The notes beneath the pieces were generated by a model. It saw nothing but the letters and a program-made list of their open reading frames with translations. It was not told where the DNA came from and did not search any database. Below, one piece after another: positions 1,816 through 25,594 of a stretch of DNA of 27,369 nucleotides (the stretch's first letter is position 1; every line of letters starts with the position of its first letter). The DNA comes from a virus. Both the position numbers and the translations under genes were made by a program. The DNA lies in IMG/VR virus record IMGVR_UViG_3300033571_019044, positions 1-27,369 of that record, one strand, 5' to 3'.

Positions 1816-2572
1816 GAAAGGGCGTAAAGCTTCTAAGCCTAGAGCCGTGCACGTAAATCGCCGTGTAGAGCTTTATTACACAAGGCAATTGCTTGCTATA
1901 TCTATATACTGTCAGGAACAAACCAAGGATCTTGTTATTCCAACGGTTGGTCAGAACATCGGTGATGCTTGGTTTTCTGACATGATGACGGCGTTTAGGG
2001 AAAAGCTGACAAAGTATGTTGTTGAGATTTCACGACCATTGGCCACAAAAGTTGTGACTGATACCCAAAAGGAAGTGGACAAGCAAATTGCAGAGCACAC
2101 CAAAACAATTATTGGTGTGGATCTCACGCCGTTTTACCGAGCTGCTGATATTCAGGATGAGGTAGATCTAAACATCACGGCAAATGTCAGTTTGATTAAG
2201 TCTATTCCGCAGCAATATGCCGATAAGCTTGAGGTATTAATAACAAATGCTTTGCAGACTGGACAAACCAATGAAGAGCTGGCCAAAGCAATTAAGCAAT
2301 TGGGCTTATCTACTGATTATCGTGCGAGGCTTATTGCTGGTGATCAGATGGGCAAGATTAACGGCCAGATTAACAAAGCCAGACAGCTTTCAATGGGTGT
2401 TGAGACATACACATGGCAAACGGCGAAAGATGAGCGAGTACGGCCTGATCATCAACATAAGCAGGGTAAAACCTTTAGATGGGATTCACCACCAGATGGC
2501 GGACATCCCGGTCAGCCTATACGGTGTCGTTGTACAGCATTGCCTAACTATGAGGATATATTGATTGATTAA
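1760..2572 (+). CDS. MuF-like head morphogenesis protein
   Basis: This is a 270-residue minor head protein of the phage Mu gpF (MuF) family, normally packaged in or attached to the prohead next to the portal. The C-terminal 50 residues carry the family signature: W-x-T-A-x-DERVRPDH (about residues 217-229), then PPDGGHPGQPIRCRCTA near residue 255. The N-terminus is basic (QQAKKRKKGRKASKPRAVH). The ATG at 1760 lies inside the portal gene and has only a weak upstream ribosome site, so coupled translation is likely. A slightly later start is possible. No extra C-terminal toxin domain is present, unlike some MuF proteins. Confidence 0.9.
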   Translation: MTTIIQILKPHLQQAKKRKKGRKASKPRAVHVNRRVELYYTRQLLAISIYCQEQTKDLVIPTVGQNIGDAWFSDMMTAFREKLTKYVVEISRPLATKVVTDTQKEVDKQIAEHTKTIIGVDLTPFYRAADIQDEVDLNITANVSLIKSIPQQYADKLEVLITNALQTGQTNEELAKAIKQLGLSTDYRARLIAGDQMGKINGQINKARQLSMGVETYTWQTAKDERVRPDHQHKQGKTFRWDSPPDGGHPGQPIRCRCTALPNYEDILID

Positions 2573-2580
2573 TACAAGTC

Positions 2581-2608
2581 ATTTATGAGATTTTTATAGT
2601 TCATAAAT
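2581..2608. promoter_or_regulatory. 8-bp inverted repeat upstream of inserted gene
   Basis: ATTTATGA (2581-2588) and its exact reverse complement TCATAAAT (2601-2608) flank a 12-base AT-rich spacer. The dyad sits between the MuF stop and the GTG start of the AT-rich gene at 2644. It could be an operator or part of a promoter for that gene. No convincing -35/-10 pair with standard spacing was found, so the role is inferred from position only. Confidence 0.35.
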
Positions 2609-2643
2609 ATCGAGTTAATTAATTAAATTAAAAGGGGTGGGAT

Positions 2644-3492
2644 GTGGAAATTAAAAATGAAATTGCAAAAGATTATGAAGAATATTGCAATCAAAGGTTA
2701 ATATCTGAATTTGGTAATTATAAGGCTGGTGGACATAATCCAATGCATTTATATCATCGTTATAAATACAGAATATTAGATGCACATCCTAGACAAGTAA
2801 TTGAACCACCTAATTTTATTATTCCTACAGAACACTTATCTGCATATGAAAAAATTATTACAGATATAAAATCAGGAAATCCTTTAAACAAATATCAAAG
2901 TCGAAATCTTAAAAGGCTAGATTATGATGATGATATGTTATCCCATTGGAGAATTCAGCACTTTCATTTAGGGGAAACTTTAGAAAGTGATGGATTTGTA
3001 TCTCGAACATCGGATTTATTATTTATTCATTTTTCTAATACCGACGCGCATATTATTGGAATTTTCTCACATGGTGATTGGTGTGATTTAGATATTATTG
3101 AAACAATTCATAATAATTGGCCACAAATTCTTATGAAATTTAAATGCGAAACGAATAGCGAGCCGCTAACAGAAGATCAATATCGTATTTTGAGAAGTAA
3201 AAATTGTAATGTTGCAGTTAGAGTTAAAGATGGAACTGAGTACTATCCACCTGGCTTAGGTGTTGTTTCTAGTGGTTCTCCTATACAGGCAATTGTAAAT
3301 GTTCAGCATGTCTTAATTAATTTCGAGAATAAATTTAATGAGATTGTTTCTAATATAGACCAGATAATTGATGAAGATCCTCAGAAAAGAACAACTGAAA
3401 TAGCAACTATAGGCTTAGAAATGGATAAGGTTAATCAAAGGTTTGTTTATAAAATCAAAGAAACAGGCTATAGATTTACTTTAAATTATTAA
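2644..3492 (+). CDS. Uncharacterised AT-rich accessory protein (moron candidate)
   Basis: This is a 282-residue protein that I cannot assign. The start is GTG, chosen because AAAGGGG lies 5-11 bases upstream. It is soluble, with no signal peptide or membrane span. The central part carries a dense set of conserved-looking residues: HWRIQHFHLG (H101, H106, H108), R121 in SRTSD, then FSHGDW (H143, D145, W146) and HNNWP (157-160). That layout of His, Arg and Trp is suggestive of an enzyme active site, but this is inference. Codon use is far more AT-rich than in the flanking head genes. It interrupts the conserved order MuF then DUF2213, has a dyad upstream and a perfect terminator downstream, and so looks like an independently expressed insertion, perhaps a lysogenic-conversion or anti-phage gene. 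Confidence 0.75.
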   Translation: MEIKNEIAKDYEEYCNQRLISEFGNYKAGGHNPMHLYHRYKYRILDAHPRQVIEPPNFIIPTEHLSAYEKIITDIKSGNPLNKYQSRNLKRLDYDDDMLSHWRIQHFHLGETLESDGFVSRTSDLLFIHFSNTDAHIIGIFSHGDWCDLDIIETIHNNWPQILMKFKCETNSEPLTEDQYRILRSKNCNVAVRVKDGTEYYPPGLGVVSSGSPIQAIVNVQHVLINFENKFNEIVSNIDQIIDEDPQKRTTEIATIGLEMDKVNQRFVYKIKETGYRFTLNY

Positions 3493-3523
3493 TAAGAAAT
3501 CATGCTTTAAGTATTTTGAAGTC

Positions 3524-3548
3524 AAACCCACCAATTGGTGGGTTTTTT
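3524..3548 (+). terminator. Rho-independent terminator after inserted gene
   Basis: The perfect palindrome CCCACCAATTGGTGGG (3527-3542) is preceded by AAA and followed by six T. The stem can extend with A-T pairs, giving AAACCCACC/GGTGGGTTT with an AATT loop. It ends the AT-rich insertion and lies 14 bases before the start of the DUF2213 gene. It can also work in the opposite direction because A residues precede it. Confidence 0.85.
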
Positions 3549-3562
3549 ATTGAGCGCAATTT

Positions 3563-4756
3563 ATGAAAAACATTTACCTCTTCAAGGTAGGTGACTTTGC
3601 GCCAAGCGAATCGACACGCTCATTTACCAAAGAGGGGTATCTGAAATGCGTCAATGTTCGCTTAGCTAAAGCGCCTCAGGTCCGTCAGTACTACGCCTAT
3701 GAGTTCCCATCTTTAGAGGGATATTCAGCAGACCAGATCATCAACATCTATACGCCTGCAGAAGAGCTCTTTAAGCCTGAAACGATTGCAAGTTTCAATG
3801 GCGTAGATGCTACTGACTATCACCCACCTAAAAATGAAATTAATGCCTCTAACTGGAAGGATTATCACATTGGTTATTGTGAGAACGTCCGACAGGAAGG
3901 CGATTATCTAGTGGGTGATCTGCTCATTAAGGACAAGATCAGCATTGATCTGATCCAAAGTAACGAGCGCATTGAGATGTCGCTTGGCTACGGGGCCATG
4001 TTAGTTGTTGAGCAAGGTACAGCGCCAGACGGTACGCCGTACCAAGCTAAATTTATCAATTTTAATGGTGATCACATAGCTCTCGTTAAGTACGGGCGCT
4101 GTGGTGGTGATTGCCGCATCGGTGACGAAAAGCAAACTCCAAAGGGGAAAACAATGGAAGTAAGTGTAAACGGTATTCGTTTTGACATTGGCGATAACAA
4201 GCCCTTGGCGGATGCATTAAAGCAGCAACAAGAGCAGCTGGAAAACTTGAAGGCTGCAAAACTTAAAGTTGGTGATAAGCATTTTTCTATCGGCGATGAA
4301 CTAAACGCAGTTCAAGCTGTAGTAGATCAATTGCATACCGAAAAAACCACTCTTGAGCAAAAAGTGGGAGATCTGGAAAAGAACCAAATGACTCCAGAAA
4401 AGGTTGAGCAAGCCGCTGCCGAACGTGCAGCTGTGATTGCCGATGCTAAAGCATTGGTGCCAACGGTAAAAACTGAAGGCTGCACATGTGAGCAAATCAA
4501 ACGTGACGTTATTGCAGCTAAAGCGGGTGATGCTTTAGTAACAGCTTTAATGGGTAGCGTTGCTGTAGGAGATGCAAAGCCTGAGCAGATCAATACAACT
4601 TTCCGCGCATTGTCGGCTGTAAAAGGAACTCATCCATCGAACCCGGTGGCCGATGCTTTGAACCACCAACAAAATATTAATGCTGGTGATGGTAAACCTT
4701 CTGGCGGTGGGGAAGAAAAGACCTACAGCAAAGAAGACGCATACAAAACAATTTAA
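3563..4756 (+). CDS. DUF2213 prohead protease fused to capsid scaffold
   Basis: This 397-residue protein has two parts. Residues about 20-190 match DUF2213 proteins, thought to be prohead proteases: EGYLKCVNV, the block DYHPPKNEINASNW (H87), EMSLGYG (S140) and HIALVKYGRCGG. H87 and S140 are candidate catalytic residues by analogy with the His/Ser pair of HK97-type proteases. That pairing is inference. Residues about 200-397 are charged and coiled-coil-like (QQQEQLENLKAAK, EKTTLEQKVGDLEKNQ), as expected of a scaffold. An in-frame ATG at 4154 (M198) has its own strong ribosome site, so a scaffold-only product may also be made. The gene sits directly before the cement and capsid genes, as expected. 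Confidence 0.87.
   Translation: MKNIYLFKVGDFAPSESTRSFTKEGYLKCVNVRLAKAPQVRQYYAYEFPSLEGYSADQIINIYTPAEELFKPETIASFNGVDATDYHPPKNEINASNWKDYHIGYCENVRQEGDYLVGDLLIKDKISIDLIQSNERIEMSLGYGAMLVVEQGTAPDGTPYQAKFINFNGDHIALVKYGRCGGDCRIGDEKQTPKGKTMEVSVNGIRFDIGDNKPLADALKQQQEQLENLKAAKLKVGDKHFSIGDELNAVQAVVDQLHTEKTTLEQKVGDLEKNQMTPEKVEQAAAERAAVIADAKALVPTVKTEGCTCEQIKRDVIAAKAGDALVTALMGSVAVGDAKPEQINTTFRALSAVKGTHPSNPVADALNHQQNINAGDGKPSGGGEEKTYSKEDAYKTI
4154..4756 (+). CDS. Candidate nested scaffold protein from internal start
   Basis: An in-frame ATG (M198 of the DUF2213 protein) is preceded by AAAGGGG with a spacing of 6 bases, a better ribosome site than most in this window. It falls exactly at the junction between the protease domain and the coiled-coil scaffold part. 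The product would be 200 residues with the helical region at its N-terminus. The arrangement parallels the lambda C/Nu3 pair, where a scaffold is made from an internal start of the protease gene. Evidence is positional; expression is not shown. Confidence 0.55.
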   Translation: MEVSVNGIRFDIGDNKPLADALKQQQEQLENLKAAKLKVGDKHFSIGDELNAVQAVVDQLHTEKTTLEQKVGDLEKNQMTPEKVEQAAAERAAVIADAKALVPTVKTEGCTCEQIKRDVIAAKAGDALVTALMGSVAVGDAKPEQINTTFRALSAVKGTHPSNPVADALNHQQNINAGDGKPSGGGEEKTYSKEDAYKTI

Positions 4757-5245: not shown

Positions 5246-6220
5246 ATGAGTAAATTGGCAGCGATGAAGCTACGTTTAACACCAGTAGCTCAAGTGGTAC
5301 AGGCAAACATTGGTGATGCATTTAATATTGATGCATTAGCTCAGTTATTCGTTAAATTGGAAGAATTTAACGACATGGACCCACAGCTTCAGCAAGTCAT
5401 GGATTATGCGAAGTACATCCCAGTTAAACCTGTAAGTGGTGTTTTTGGCGGTGGTGAAGTCTTAACCCGTAAAAAAGGCGTGGGGATTGGTAAAGAATAT
5501 TCAGGTACAGGTAATGACATTCCTGTGGCTGAAGTTGACTATGACACTGTTTCACTACCAATTAAGGTAGGTACAATTAGTTATTGGTATTCAGTACTTG
5601 AACTAGAAACTGCTCAGAAAATGAATGTAACGCTTGAAGCTGATAAGGTTCAGGCGGCACGCTTAGCAGCTGAGAAGCACTTAAGTAACATTGCTTGGTA
5701 TGGGAATGATGCTACTGGTATCAAAGGTTTCCTAAATCAAACTGGTGTAACCGTGGTTACAGCTCAACATAATTGGGCTACAGCAACCATTGAAGAAGTA
5801 CTATCAGATTTCAACTCAAGCCTAGCTGATGCAGAAGATCAGATTGATGGTGATGTTTCAGTTCAGCCTGACACTTATTTGATGGCATCAAATCAGTACA
5901 AGCATCTTTCAACTCGAATCGTCCCTGATTCTGGTGGCAAAACTTTCTTAAAGTTCATTGAAGAAAATAACATCTTTGCCACTCAAAATAAGCCTTTAAC
6001 CTTCCGTGGTTTAGGTCGTTCAAACGGTAAAGGTACAGCTGATGCAGACCGTTCTATTATTTATCGTCGTGATCCATCATGCATTCAAATGAAATGTAAT
6101 GACGTCACTTTCTTGGCAGCTCAACCAGTTGGCTTAGATATCAAAGTGCCTGGTCACTACAAATATCAAGGCGTATGGTTGAAGCGTGTTGATTCTCTTC
6201 GTTACTTGGATCACGTGTAA
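5246..6220 (+). CDS. Major capsid protein, DUF2184 family
   Basis: This 324-residue protein is the probable HK97-fold shell subunit. Supporting sequence includes SYWYSVLELETAQ, an Ala-rich helix (DKVQAARLAAEKHL, about residues 131-144), WYGNDATGIKGFLNQ and PDTYLMASNQYKHLS, all characteristic of the DUF2184 major capsid family. There is no long N-terminal delta domain, consistent with a separately encoded scaffold. Codon use is the most optimised in the window, as expected for the most abundant protein. A terminator-like hairpin begins 35 bases after its stop, inside the next ORF. Confidence 0.9.
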   Translation: MSKLAAMKLRLTPVAQVVQANIGDAFNIDALAQLFVKLEEFNDMDPQLQQVMDYAKYIPVKPVSGVFGGGEVLTRKKGVGIGKEYSGTGNDIPVAEVDYDTVSLPIKVGTISYWYSVLELETAQKMNVTLEADKVQAARLAAEKHLSNIAWYGNDATGIKGFLNQTGVTVVTAQHNWATATIEEVLSDFNSSLADAEDQIDGDVSVQPDTYLMASNQYKHLSTRIVPDSGGKTFLKFIEENNIFATQNKPLTFRGLGRSNGKGTADADRSIIYRRDPSCIQMKCNDVTFLAAQPVGLDIKVPGHYKYQGVWLKRVDSLRYLDHV

Positions 6221-6233
6221 GGATTAAAACAGT

Positions 6234-6617
6234 ATGAAATATTCTTATATTTATAGCGGCTTACAAGCCGCTTTTGTTTTTTCTGGTGTTGCTGTTTTGC
6301 CTACTGGTACCCCAACGCTTGTGGATGAAGAATCACACAAGAAGCTTTCTAAAAATAAGTTTGCTAAACATCTTATTGATATCGGTGAGCTCGAAGTTCA
6401 GGAAATCCCAGATGATGAGCCAAAAACAGCGGGTAAAACAGGTGGCCGTGGTGGTAAAGGCGGCAAATCAAACGATGCAGCTAGTGACGCATCTAAGGCT
6501 GCAGATGAAGCTGCTTTGGCCGCTGTGAAAGCTGAACTAGCAGCGCTTGAAGTAACGTTCAGTGATGATGAAACACTTGAGCAGCTTCAAGCTAAGTTAG
6601 CTCAGGCTAAGGAATAA
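6234..6617 (+). CDS. Small head protein with Lys/Ala-rich tail
   Basis: This 127-residue protein is of unknown precise role, between the capsid and DUF4054 connector genes. The first 60 residues (FSGVAVLPTGTPTLVDEE, then KFAKHLIDIGELEV) look like a compact folded domain. Residues about 65-100 are a low-complexity Gly/Lys/Ala/Asp stretch (KTGGRGGKGGK), and the end is a predicted amphipathic helix. AAGGA lies 11 bases before the ATG. The first 13 codons contain a near-perfect GC stem followed by a T-rich run (see 6255), so the N-terminus doubles as a possible transcription attenuator. Confidence 0.72.
   Translation: MKYSYIYSGLQAAFVFSGVAVLPTGTPTLVDEESHKKLSKNKFAKHLIDIGELEVQEIPDDEPKTAGKTGGRGGKGGKSNDAASDASKAADEAALAAVKAELAALEVTFSDDETLEQLQAKLAQAKE
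6255..6283 (+). terminator. Terminator-like hairpin inside the start of the 6234 gene
   Basis: AGCGGCTT (6255-6262) pairs with AAGCCGCT (6265-6272), giving a 7-bp stem with a 4-base loop. It is followed by TTTTGTTTTTT. It lies 35 bases past the major capsid stop. In RNA terms this is a good intrinsic terminator, but the bases are also codons 8-17 of the next gene. Confidence 0.55.
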
Positions 6618-6626
6618 GGTAGACAT

Positions 6627-7010
6627 ATGGACGTACAAACGTTTCGCCAGAAATTCTCTACCGATACGGCTTTAGTCAGTTTGCCTGATGCAAAGATTCA
6701 AGATGCATTAGAAGAAGCAGATCTGGTCGTATCTCAAATTGAGTTTGGCGCATTAAAGGAGCGTGCTGTAGGTCTATATGCAGCGCATATTCTTAAAGTA
6801 GGCATCTCAAGCGGCAACGGTGCCGCTTTTAGTAACGCCTCGAGCATGACAATCGCGGGCCAAAGCGTGAGTTATTCCCGATCATCGAAAGAAGCTTTCT
6901 ATGATCTCAGCATGTATGGCCAGCGTTACCTTGCCTTAAAAAATTCCATTCCAATCGATGATGAAGGCACAAACCCTAATCGTTTAGGTGTTAGTGCTTT
7001 TGTTGTATAG
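6627..7010 (+). CDS. Head-tail connector, DUF4054 family
   Basis: This 127-residue protein is a probable head completion or adaptor that binds under the portal. The pattern is typical of DUF4054: FRQKFS near the N-terminus, a helix ending in ADLVVSQIEFG, the AAHILK helix (about residues 50-55), then a Ser/Gly-rich stretch with SMTIAGQSVSYS and the late FYDLSMYGQRYLALK. The length is standard. It has AAGGTAGAC just upstream and forms a tight run with the next three genes. Confidence 0.82.
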   Translation: MDVQTFRQKFSTDTALVSLPDAKIQDALEEADLVVSQIEFGALKERAVGLYAAHILKVGISSGNGAAFSNASSMTIAGQSVSYSRSSKEAFYDLSMYGQRYLALKNSIPIDDEGTNPNRLGVSAFVV

Positions 7011-9554: not shown

Positions 9555-9625
9555 TGCTGCCCTATTTGCAAAATGTGTAAGCGTTGGTTAAAGTTTGTAA
9601 ATTAAAACTTTATAAGGATAAATCT

Positions 9626-10126
9626 GTGGCTTTAACTAATTGTAAAGAGTGTGGGGCTCAAGTTAGCACTCAAGCTAAAAACTGTCCAAACTGTGGGGCT
9701 AAAGTCAAAAAGCGCTCTATTCTTAAGTGGATTTTTTTAGGATTCGTCATTCTGTTTATTATTGGAATCATTGCTGGTGGTGGTGAAGGATCTTCTTCAT
9801 CAAATAGCACTAAAGAATTGTCACCTAAAGAAGATGCACTTAAAAATACTGTCTTAGATTATGATTGGGCAAAAGGTGGTTTTGATAGTGTCATGTTAGT
9901 TGATTTTAAAATTAAGAATAATAGTAAATATGACATTAAAGATATCACCGTAGAGTGTGAACACTATTCCAATAGTAAAACAAAGATCGACAGCAATAGC
10001 CGAGTAATTTATGAGATTGTTAAAGCTGGTGAAACTAAAACAGTCAAACAATTTAATATGGGCTTTATACATTCTCAAGCTGCATCGTCAGGTTGTGGAA
10101 TAACTGACTTAGTTGTTATTCAGTAA
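9626..10126 (+). CDS. Zinc-ribbon, single-pass membrane accessory protein
   Basis: This is a 166-residue protein of unknown function. I place the start at GTG 9626, with AAGGA 7 bases upstream. An ATG-less extension to 9584 is possible but gives an unlikely leader. Order: a double CxxC zinc ribbon (CKECGAQ...CPNCGAK, residues about 6-25), a basic patch KKRS, one membrane helix (ILKWIFLGFVILFIIGIIAGG, about 32-52), a Ser/Asn linker, then an exported-looking beta domain (DFKIKNNSKYDIKDITVEC, EIVKAGETKTVKQFN) similar in style to FxLYD-type beta-sandwiches. It interrupts the normal chaperone to tape measure order and is followed by two terminators. This is typical of a moron, perhaps for superinfection exclusion (inference). 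Confidence 0.75.
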   Translation: MALTNCKECGAQVSTQAKNCPNCGAKVKKRSILKWIFLGFVILFIIGIIAGGGEGSSSSNSTKELSPKEDALKNTVLDYDWAKGGFDSVMLVDFKIKNNSKYDIKDITVECEHYSNSKTKIDSNSRVIYEIVKAGETKTVKQFNMGFIHSQAASSGCGITDLVVIQ

Positions 10127-20839: not shown

Positions 20840-21085
20840 ATGAAAATTTTTGCTTTAATTTTTTCAATTCTTTGGATTATTTCTGTTAGTGTAATTTTAT
20901 ATTTTAAAGTAACCCTGTGGGGGCTTGACGCTAATAATCTTAGTCTCATTCTTTCGGCTATTTATGCTCTCATATCTTCTGTTATGTATTTTTATCCTTC
21001 CAATGAGGCGACAATTAAGCAAACTGCTACAGCAGATAATAAAAGTAAAGTTACTCAGGTCGGAAGAGATTATACAGGTAAATAA
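20840..21085 (+). CDS. Two-helix membrane protein with C-terminal QxGRD tail
   Basis: This is an 81-residue protein of unknown function. Two membrane helices occupy residues about 3-22 (IFALIFSILWIISVSVILYF) and 33-52 (LSLILSAIYALISSVMYFYP). The remaining 27 residues form a polar tail with the motif Q-T-A-T-A-D-N-K-S-K-V-T-Q-V-G-R-D-Y. The next gene carries a closely similar motif at its N-terminus, so the two products probably share a partner or touch each other. The codons are very AT-rich. It is separated from the next start by about 20 bases, consistent with one transcript. Possible roles: membrane effector of a defence pair, superinfection exclusion, or a second holin; none is shown. Confidence 0.7.
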   Translation: MKIFALIFSILWIISVSVILYFKVTLWGLDANNLSLILSAIYALISSVMYFYPSNEATIKQTATADNKSKVTQVGRDYTGK

Positions 21086-21104
21086 TTTAATGGAGATATT
21101 TGGA

Positions 21105-22121
21105 ATGGGTGACAAAGTAGAACAATCAGCTGAAGCGAGCAACAGAAGTAATATTAATCAAGCAGGGCGGGATATCAATAATAACTATGGTCCTGGAATG
21201 TTTGAAATTATTCAAACTATCGATTATCAAGTAAGAAGTCAGTTTGAAGGACTTCTTCATAAGCATGCGCCAGTATTAATCCAAAATGAGATGCAAAAAG
21301 TTGAAGCATCAGTCAATAGTTTTAAAGAGACAATGAGTTCAAGATTGTCAGAACAATTCGAAATCTTGAAAACTTCTTTAAGCGAAGAATTATCTGGAGA
21401 AAAATTAATAAAAGGTGTTACGGATTCAAATTTTCAATATTTATTTAAAGATAGTTTAGAACAAGTTATACGTAAGAAAGAGCAAGCTCCTCAACAAGTT
21501 CTTGTCGAATTATTACTAGATAAAGTTAAGTCAGACAATAATTCGGATTATTTGGTAGATGAAGCTATCGAAGTTCTAAAGTATTTAAATAAGAACCACG
21601 TAAATTTTTTACTTTTTATTGGCATTACTCGGAAAGAAATGAGAGTGAAATTTGATAATTTGAGTAAAGAGGTACTTGAAGAATTAAAACTTTCATATTT
21701 ATTTCAAATTAGATGGACATTAAATTACTTATTACAGTTTGATATTTCTGAAATTGATCTGGAATATCTGTCTTATAAAGGTTTAATTCAAGAAGATAAG
21801 ATATATGTTGAGGATAAAAATATCTTCGATGCAATTTGTGAACATTGTATTCCTGAAGACCTAAAAAATAAGTTAAATAAAACTAACGAAGAGCTAATAG
21901 ATATCTTTATTCCTGAATTGCCAATTATTTTAGAAAAGTTTGGTTTAACTAAACCTTATACTTTTAATGTTTTGAGTAAGGTGGCACAAACGATCGTTAA
22001 TAAAAGTTATGGGAATATTGTGATGTCTATTCAGAAACATAAGGATTTAAATACTAAGATAAGACAAGAGTGGAATTTAGCTTTCGTAAAGATGATTACT
22101 CAAAATAATATAAAATGGTGA
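21105..22121 (+). CDS. QxGRD-motif protein, possible LPO_1073/Vpar_1526-like
   Basis: This is an about 339-residue soluble protein. I favour ATG 21105, with GGAG 9 bases upstream; ATG 21090 is possible. N-terminus: Q-S-A-E-A-S-N-R-S-N-I-N-Q-A-G-R-D-I-N, matching the tail of the preceding membrane protein. Residues about 30-100: a helical, partly coiled-coil region (MQKVEASVNSFKETMSSRLS). Residues about 105-330: an all-helical domain (NFQYLFKDSLEQVIRKKEQA, VLVELLLDKV, DEAIEVLKYLNKNHVNFLLF). The layout resembles bacterial proteins annotated as LPO_1073/Vpar_1526 family, whose function is unknown, but this is from memory. It is very AT-rich and lies between lysis genes and umuDC, a common site for prophage accessory or defence genes. 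Confidence 0.72.
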   Translation: MGDKVEQSAEASNRSNINQAGRDINNNYGPGMFEIIQTIDYQVRSQFEGLLHKHAPVLIQNEMQKVEASVNSFKETMSSRLSEQFEILKTSLSEELSGEKLIKGVTDSNFQYLFKDSLEQVIRKKEQAPQQVLVELLLDKVKSDNNSDYLVDEAIEVLKYLNKNHVNFLLFIGITRKEMRVKFDNLSKEVLEELKLSYLFQIRWTLNYLLQFDISEIDLEYLSYKGLIQEDKIYVEDKNIFDAICEHCIPEDLKNKLNKTNEELIDIFIPELPIILEKFGLTKPYTFNVLSKVAQTIVNKSYGNIVMSIQKHKDLNTKIRQEWNLAFVKMITQNNIKW

Positions 22122-24729: not shown

Positions 24730-25500
24730 TCAGGTTAATTCACTTCTATCAAATGTAACTTTTATATTACCTGTATTGTTATCAATACGTTCTATTTTTC
24801 CGTTCTCATTCCTAGTTAATTGAATGTATTTTACATATATGGTAGTTACGTGGTCATTACCGTCTTTATCTAAATAGTGTAATTCGATTTCAAAAATTTC
24901 ATTTCCAGATAAATTAGCAGGGTTTATTTGGAAATGAAATTTACAATTTTCATCTTTAAATGATTTATTGTATGGAAAGCCATCGATAAGAGTATCTGGT
25001 ACTATTGGACGAACTTTTTTATTGATTTTAAAAGTTTGTGGATCGGATTTCACAATAGGAAAAATACGATTAACTTCACCAATTACTGAAAATTCAATAG
25101 TATATGTACAAAAGACATGAGGTATCGAAGGAAAAACTCTTGACTCAATATCTGAGAAAATAGGTTTAATTAATTTTTTTCTATTTATCTCCTTTTCTTC
25201 TAATATCATCAATTGTTTTTGAGCGATATGTAGATTTTTATCAGTCTGTCTGAATGTAAGTAGCAGCCAAAGAAAAGCTAATGGAGAAAATATTCCAGCA
25301 AGTAGACTGCCAAAACCACCAAAATCGATAAGTTCTGATTTAATACCAACATTACTCCATGAATAATCGTCAGGTTCTGCTAAAAAACAAATATAAGAGA
25401 TATAGATCAAATATATAAAAGTTAGTGCATAAGGTATTACTTTTAACAGATTAATTTTACTAAATATTTGTTTTTTTAAATTAAGTAATTTACTAAGCAT
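24730..25500 (-). CDS. Two-helix membrane protein with extracytoplasmic or cytosolic beta domain, unknown function
   Basis: This is a 256-residue protein. I favour the ATG at 25500 (MLSKLLNL), which has AGGTG 9 bases upstream; an ATG at 25518 adds six residues. Two membrane helices: about residues 19-40 (VIPYALTFIYLIYISYICFL) and 61-83 (GGFGSLLAGIFSPLAFLWLL). A helical segment follows (QTDKNLHIAQKQLMILEEKE). The rest is a beta-rich domain (FCTYTIEFSVIGEVNRIFP; EIFEIELHYLDKDGNDHVTT). Very AT-rich. The same frame stays open upstream of both ATGs and encodes a third hydrophobic stretch without a standard start codon. I do not recognise a defined function. Proteins of this form are common accessory genes in prophages. 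Confidence 0.7.
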   Translation of the reverse strand: MLSKLLNLKKQIFSKINLLKVIPYALTFIYLIYISYICFLAEPDDYSWSNVGIKSELIDFGGFGSLLAGIFSPLAFLWLLLTFRQTDKNLHIAQKQLMILEEKEINRKKLIKPIFSDIESRVFPSIPHVFCTYTIEFSVIGEVNRIFPIVKSDPQTFKINKKVRPIVPDTLIDGFPYNKSFKDENCKFHFQINPANLSGNEIFEIELHYLDKDGNDHVTTIYVKYIQLTRNENGKIERIDNNTGNIKVTFDRSELT

Positions 25501-25594
25501 GCTATTGGCACCTATCATAATAAAAATTAATACGGCTATTATATTGAGCCCAGCTAGAAATGCGATCCACCCACCACTACTTCCTTTTCTTTAG

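Follow-up and report, generated by a model that had tools for sequence, protein, structure and literature searches.

Closest described systems and the A-B locus

BASS pairs consist of an NLR protein and a Bell effector (Dyrka et al. 2020, reviewed in PMC7889193). Their genes are adjacent or overlapping, and the membrane effector carries at its C-terminus a motif that the NLR carries at its N-terminus (PMC7889193); on the effector side, the motifs are 21-40 residues long (PMC12261475). A review of the field asks whether NLR-independent signalling amyloids exist in bacteria and points out a bias of past searches towards NLR/effector layouts (PMC7889193).

The locus analysed here consists of two genes that we call A and B. 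It resembles BASS in that the two genes are adjacent or overlapping, that the C-terminal end of A and the N-terminal end of B share a short polar motif, and that divergent versions of the motif are matched within pairs. It differs from BASS by its regulator, an LPO_1073 helical protein without NLR/STAND NTPase, and by its membrane protein, which comprises only 61-102 residues with one or two helices and no recognised Bell domain. Furthermore, most of the BASS pairs described come from filamentous actinobacteria and cyanobacteria, whereas A-B occurs in unicellular proteobacteria and their phages. A-B also recalls the fungal HET-S/NWD2 and HELLP/PNT1 pairs, in which a prion-like motif relays the signal of a sensor to the membrane-killing product of an adjacent gene. 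However, the fungal sensors are NLRs and the effectors are of the HeLo/HELL type. Small transmembrane effectors are likewise present in defence operons as SLATT or SMODS-associated proteins, but the SLATT score of A is far under the cut-off (see below).

The A and B genes and their shared motif

The window, i.e. the whole 27,369-nucleotide stretch of DNA that was analysed (IMG/VR virus record IMGVR_UViG_3300033571_019044, positions 1 to 27,369), encodes portal, tail, GH108 endolysin, UmuC, UmuD, SRAP and integrase proteins, and its closest kin come from Acinetobacter material. The A-B cassette is flanked by the GH108 endolysin gene and umuC, with a GC content of 30-33% versus 40-43% around it. 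The original prediction, made from the DNA letters alone, had described two adjacent, AT-rich ORFs with a shared motif between the lysis genes and umuDC, and both ORFs and both motifs were found at that place. The gap between A and B is 19 bp in the window, and the two genes overlap in other loci. Searches for a terminator and for a significant promoter of A-B in the window returned none. The features of the cassette are as follows.

20840 to 21085, plus strand: gene A, coding for an 81-residue membrane protein, the proposed effector (ORF, dN/dS, conservation beside B in relatives)
20846 to 20902, plus strand: hydrophobic segment 1 of A, residues 3-21 (19-residue hydropathy window, 2.6)
20939 to 20995, plus strand: hydrophobic segment 2 of A, residues 34-52 (19-residue hydropathy window, 1.8)
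21014 to 21070, plus strand: C-terminal motif of A, IKQTATADNKSKVTQVGRD, residues 59-77 (alignment with the B head, family alignment)
21092 to 21095, plus strand: GGAG, probable ribosome-binding site of B (from the sequence)
21105 to 22121, plus strand: gene B, coding for a 338-residue helical protein of the NF045477 family, the proposed sensor (NCBIfam match, model)
21117 to 21173, plus strand: N-terminal motif of B, VEQSAEASNRSNINQAGRD, residues 5-23 (alignments; disordered in models)
21195 to 21629, plus strand: conserved helical half of B, residues 31-175 (dN/dS 0.06-0.13)
21630 to 22118, plus strand: fast-evolving half of B, residues 176-338 (identity and dN/dS), with a putative sensing role

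The two hydrophobic segments of A agree with the two-helix membrane protein that had been predicted. They are followed by a polar tail that ends with IKQTATADNKSKVTQVGRDYTGK. B starts with MGDKVEQSAEASNRSNINQAGRDINNNYG, most likely at the ATG at position 21105, with the GGAG sequence ahead of it; an alternative in-frame ATG is present at position 21090.

The order endolysin, A, B, umuC is kept in three IMG/VR contigs, whose A and B proteins are 83-90% and 53-60% identical to those of the window, respectively. The dN/dS ratios are 0.04-0.28 for A (compared with loci L002 and L003) and 0.06-0.50 for B (compared with its relatives), and thus both are real genes. Within A, the ratio is 0.04-0.05 for the membrane part and 0.21-0.28 for the tail. 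The first half of B evolves slowly, as indicated in the list, and its second half has a ratio of 0.35-0.50 and is 38-44% identical to those of close relatives. A slowly evolving membrane part in A and first half in B, combined with a fast-evolving far half in B, are what would be expected of a sensor-effector pair.

AlphaFold2 modelled B as all-helical, in line with the prediction, with its first 29 residues disordered. B scores 53 bits on the NCBIfam model NF045477 (LPO_1073/Vpar_1526), over the curated cut-off of 45 (E value 3.7e-14). This profile match places B in an uncharacterised family whose name gives no function, and our literature search found no description of the function of NF045477, of its N-terminal motif or of a partner A. 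Among 10 B proteins, no NTPase or repeat family was found above cut-off, and Foldseek searches with two B models retrieved no similar structure from the PDB or from viral libraries. Similarly, no Pfam domain was detected above cut-off in nine A proteins. A is too short to harbour a helical bundle plus a helix. The candidate assignments that we discarded for A are SLATT_1 (12.9 bits for a cut-off of 41) and the phage holin LL-H family (TIGR01673; 18.5 bits for a cut-off of 34.75). Weak matches to SUFU, HEPN_IX, TetR_C_29, PbeC and SSB were regarded as noise, as none was above the curated cut-off and none recurred in homologues.

The alignment of the A tail with the B head has a Smith-Waterman score of 54, for a maximum of 39 with shuffled sequences (n=1000, p 0.001); p is 0.002 for whole A versus whole B. 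The two 17-codon motifs share 63% of their nucleotides, and the same codon is used for only four of the nine identical residues. The likeness is therefore held at the protein level, as had been proposed. The family alignment yielded a motif of ~20 residues with a consensus of roughly Q-x-Q-x-x-G-x-x-S-x-x-[IV]-Q-A-G-x-[DN]-[IV]-x-[IV]. The proportion of N, Q, S, G and T residues in the motif is 48-49%, versus 25% elsewhere, and no structure is predicted for the region by either of two AlphaFold2 models (pLDDT <50 over residues 1-29 and 1-24). The sole recurrent Pfam resemblance of the motif is to the curlin repeat (Curlin_rpt, PF07012), which was matched in 2 of 22 motifs, with a best match (E value 0.0019, 18.5 bits) below the gathering cut-off of 20.7 bits. 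Both window motifs have the N-x-S-x-[IV]-x-Q-x-G spacing of curli repeats. Nevertheless, in contrast with curli, the A-B motif is present as a single copy in an intracellular protein, with no secretion genes.

Pairing and co-evolution of the motifs in homologues

Direct searches of INPHARED phages and IMG/VR with window B returned nothing or close kin only. A composite query composed of the B core, A and a piece of UmuD, aimed at Acinetobacter genomes, gave UmuD matches only, and a four-sequence profile used genus-wide recovered one locus; the NCBIfam model did better. Using the NF045477 model and B profiles, we reached divergent B proteins encoded on Acinetobacter chromosomes and in other Pseudomonadota, as well as in phages of E. 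coli, a gut phage contig without assignment and more IMG/VR contigs. The identity of their bodies to that of window B is as low as 22-30%, and the cassettes checked for pairing extend down to about 20% identity.

A small membrane protein with the same C-terminal tag adjoins B in 17 of the 17 checkable loci, which represent ~14 divergent cassettes. Loci were considered checkable when B bears the motif and has an intact N-terminus and when the flank is present, namely the window, L002, L003, L004, L042, L032, L033, L035, L036, L043, L046, L052, L053, L070, L071, L074 and L075, with the E. coli locus L042 also standing for L044, L045 and L047-L051. The hydrophobic N-terminal part of these partner A proteins, 61-102 residues in total length, comprises one or two segments; in the A protein of genome G224, it is under the hydropathy threshold used. 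Once the motif was defined, a B-only profile recovered loci L070, L071, L074 and L075, and in this held-out test the four testable loci all fit the pairing (p 0.0005-0.001 each). In L074, the gene order is B-A, and an unusual QGG variant is common to both motifs.

There are exceptions. L034 codes for a B relative with a hydrophobic, glycine-rich N-terminus, without the motif and without A. This LPO_1073 relative, found beside phage terminase genes (L034, 1480-2307, minus strand; L041, 8616-9443, minus strand), possibly combines the sensor and the membrane effector in a single chain. The B gene of L005, on an Acinetobacter plasmid, is a 5'-truncated relic. In addition, the gut phage contig MT837131 (L046, 1200-2000) encodes an A-like protein with the motif twice, near tyrosine recombinases, and its B gene appears to be broken or frameshifted.

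Motif scores were then compared between partners and non-partners. Summed over 14 divergent pairs, the own-partner score is 717, whereas 100,000 random re-pairings gave a mean of 487 (sd 38, maximum 685), corresponding to p 1e-5 for pairs that, as a caveat, share ancestry; the first ten pairs alone also gave a permutation p of 1e-5. The within-pair excess indicates correlated change, since a single old duplication would leave tail i equally distant from heads i and j. The own partner ranks first for 5 of the 14 A tails and between first and fourth for all of them, and thus the specificity is graded rather than absolute. By this sequence measure, the motifs co-evolve within pairs, as expected if they touch, and direct contact between the A and B motifs is strongly implied.

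The original prediction had proposed a sensor-effector pair sharing a contact motif, and this proposal is strongly supported by the co-occurrence of A and B in homologues, the conservation of the motif in both partners and their co-evolution. It had also suggested that the two proteins dock either on the same ligand or on each other. The same three observations favour mutual docking. Binding of both motifs to a common third partner would also generate motif likeness within one genome, but a conserved host ligand would not be expected to lead to pair-specific co-evolution across hosts, and two versions of the motif are present inside the genus Acinetobacter (the window type versus the L035/L036 type). 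We therefore regard a third partner as quite improbable. A search of 219 genomes with a motif profile identified no second kind of carrier; the two strong matches were both in G224, the locus of which is in the profile, and they are not independent.

The main rival to a motif-templated switch is a guard or toxin-antitoxin complex, in which B would hold a membrane toxin A inactive through direct, conventional (non-amyloid) pairing of the motifs, and infection would remove or alter B such that A kills. This model predicts the same pairing throughout, and a patchily distributed, mobile two-gene operon encoding a small hydrophobic protein and a co-evolving contact motif agrees with it. However, a self-similar motif is better suited to homotypic assembly, as the two sides of a binder-target interface normally differ. 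Moreover, A usually comes first and is translated first, which is the less common toxin-antitoxin order, and L034 has a B relative without A. On balance, we consider a guard complex unlikely, while taking it seriously.

Genomic settings of A-B

A-B is a conserved unit found in accessory or defence slots of mobile elements, with a patchy distribution. It occurs in 2 of 399 genomes of Pseudomonadota, 3 of 176 of Acinetobacter and 1 of 369 in a third genome survey. In E. coli, 7 of 5426 genomes have a match, which in 6 of these genomes covers 80% or more of the query.

In the L052 prophage, a complete Thoeris system directly follows A-B (ThsB, E value 1e-57; ThsA, E value 2e-201), and a gene coding for a PIN_12-domain protein, possibly another defence gene, is immediately upstream (2548-3666, plus strand). 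In E. coli P2-like prophages and phage-plasmids, A-B is inserted between the replication gene gpA and the portal gene (gpQ), a hotspot in which Rousset et al. demonstrated the presence of anti-phage systems (PMC9122126). Neither A nor B is represented among the PADLOC models. In L042, where the cassette occupies positions 5700-6860, and in L044 according to its annotation, A-B is next to PADLOC Hp1, Hp2 and Hp3, which we take to be a three-gene P2-hotspot system reported to be active against P1. The neighbour genes differ in L045, and thus A-B moves independently. One of these neighbours (L045, 2838-3704, plus strand) has an Abi_C match under the 24-bit cut-off (E value 0.0017, 18.8 bits) and no PADLOC model.

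In Acinetobacter plasmids, one of which is named pOXA58, the B relic lies downstream of a type II CBASS operon. This degraded B-family gene (L005, 4950-5525) is located directly after a Cap2-like gene and is near-identical in at least 10 plasmids. In G419 (L038), A-B belongs to an integron-like array with repeated attC-like stretches, as read from repeated translated sequence, and in L053, L071, L075 and L043 it is beside an integrase-like gene, as read by eye. The guess of an anti-phage role in the original prediction is thus backed by the neighbourhood of A-B, i.e. Thoeris, the P2 hotspot, CBASS and the integron-like array, which points to a putative role in defence.

These settings also bear on other potential roles. 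A might be a holin-like or antiholin-like protein, with B tuning the lysis timing of the prophage itself, given that A-B adjoins the lysis genes in the window, is near a spanin-like gene in L053 and has a sub-threshold match to the holin model TIGR01673. Nevertheless, lysis genes are not close to A-B in the P2 hotspot, the integron-like array, the Thoeris prophage and immunity regions, and the window separately encodes a holin-like membrane protein in addition to the endolysin. The same holin-like gene is present in an Acinetobacter prophage with a divergent A-B (L040). Alternatively, a membrane-seated A stabilised by B might block genome entry as a superinfection-exclusion protein, which would fit with the prophage location and with the small size of A. 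However, known exclusion proteins act alone, and neither a conserved helical B with its N-terminal motif nor the plasmid and integron copies would be explained. Based on the range of A-B contexts, both of these roles are less likely; we give little credence to lysis timing, and simple superinfection exclusion appears equally improbable.

Beyond A-B, three further genes of the window are worth mentioning. Between the SRAP and integrase genes, a gene (24730-25518, minus strand) codes for a 262-residue protein that has no Pfam match and whose N-terminal part comprises two hydrophobic segments. Different membrane proteins are encoded near this slot in the relatives L003 (8901-9611) and L004 (5450-5860), making it an apparent second variable accessory slot. 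A moron-like, 282-residue ORF with ~30% GC and no Pfam match is present amid the head genes (2644-3492, plus strand), and an AT-rich gene within the tail operon codes for a zinc-ribbon plus one-helix membrane protein (9584-10126, plus strand).

A candidate NLR-free switch

We consider it somewhat probable that A-B is a two-protein, prophage-carried abortive-infection switch. In this model, the soluble sensor B would recognise an infection product of another phage via its fast-evolving C-terminal half and assemble. Its flexible N-terminal motifs would then meet and fold into an ordered, probably cross-beta structure, which would template the corresponding motif in the tail at the C-terminus of A. 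The latter, a one- or two-helix inner-membrane protein, would cluster and permeabilise or depolarise the membrane, such that the infected cell would be arrested or killed before maturation of the invading phage. The amyloid step is suggested by analogy, from the layout and composition of the motifs, and the membrane damage, the phage defence and the sensing half of B are similarly putative. The more specific view, that A-B is a compact, prophage-borne immune switch of unicellular bacteria that signals through amyloid without an NLR, with a templated, prion-like state handed from a new helical sensor fold to a membrane killer of 60-100 residues via a lineage-specific, co-evolving motif, is plausible but falls somewhat short of even odds in our estimation.

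A potential relationship of B with Abi-alpha proteins deserves attention, as the Abi-alpha protein of an Enterococcus prophage makes infected cells lyse prematurely (PMC6356687). Both are prophage-borne and helical, their cores align in register over about 55-95 columns, and the helical core and C-terminal L-T-S-V-G pattern of B recall Abi-alpha. The profile-profile comparison, using nine proteins fetched with PF14337 for Abi-alpha, gave a score of 23.8, versus a maximum of 18.3 over 250 column shuffles and 13.3 for the reversed profile; its nominal E value of 0.017-0.05 (probability 1-3%) is not significant as such. No Pfam match to PF14337 was found among the 10 B proteins at E ≤ 1. In addition, Abi-alpha was shown to act as a single gene, with no motif partner. 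Kinship of B with Abi-alpha/DUF4393 is thus suggestive, a lead rather than a proof.

The original prediction considered A-B the best candidate for an undescribed system. This is half right: our literature search found no paper describing the pair, but B already belongs to NF045477, and the logic of shared motifs is known from BASS and NLR amyloid signalosomes. What A-B adds is a candidate NLR-free form of bacterial amyloid signalling carried by prophages, or a new kind of system should its motifs prove to work by another principle. With ~1.3 kb, A-B represents a concrete, minimal candidate for an NLR-independent signalling amyloid in phages of E. coli and Acinetobacter, testable by plaque assays and motif swaps in an E. 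coli laboratory strain. The natural motif variants, matched within pairs, are suited to studying how templating specificity evolves, and A-B provides a testable role for the LPO_1073 family.
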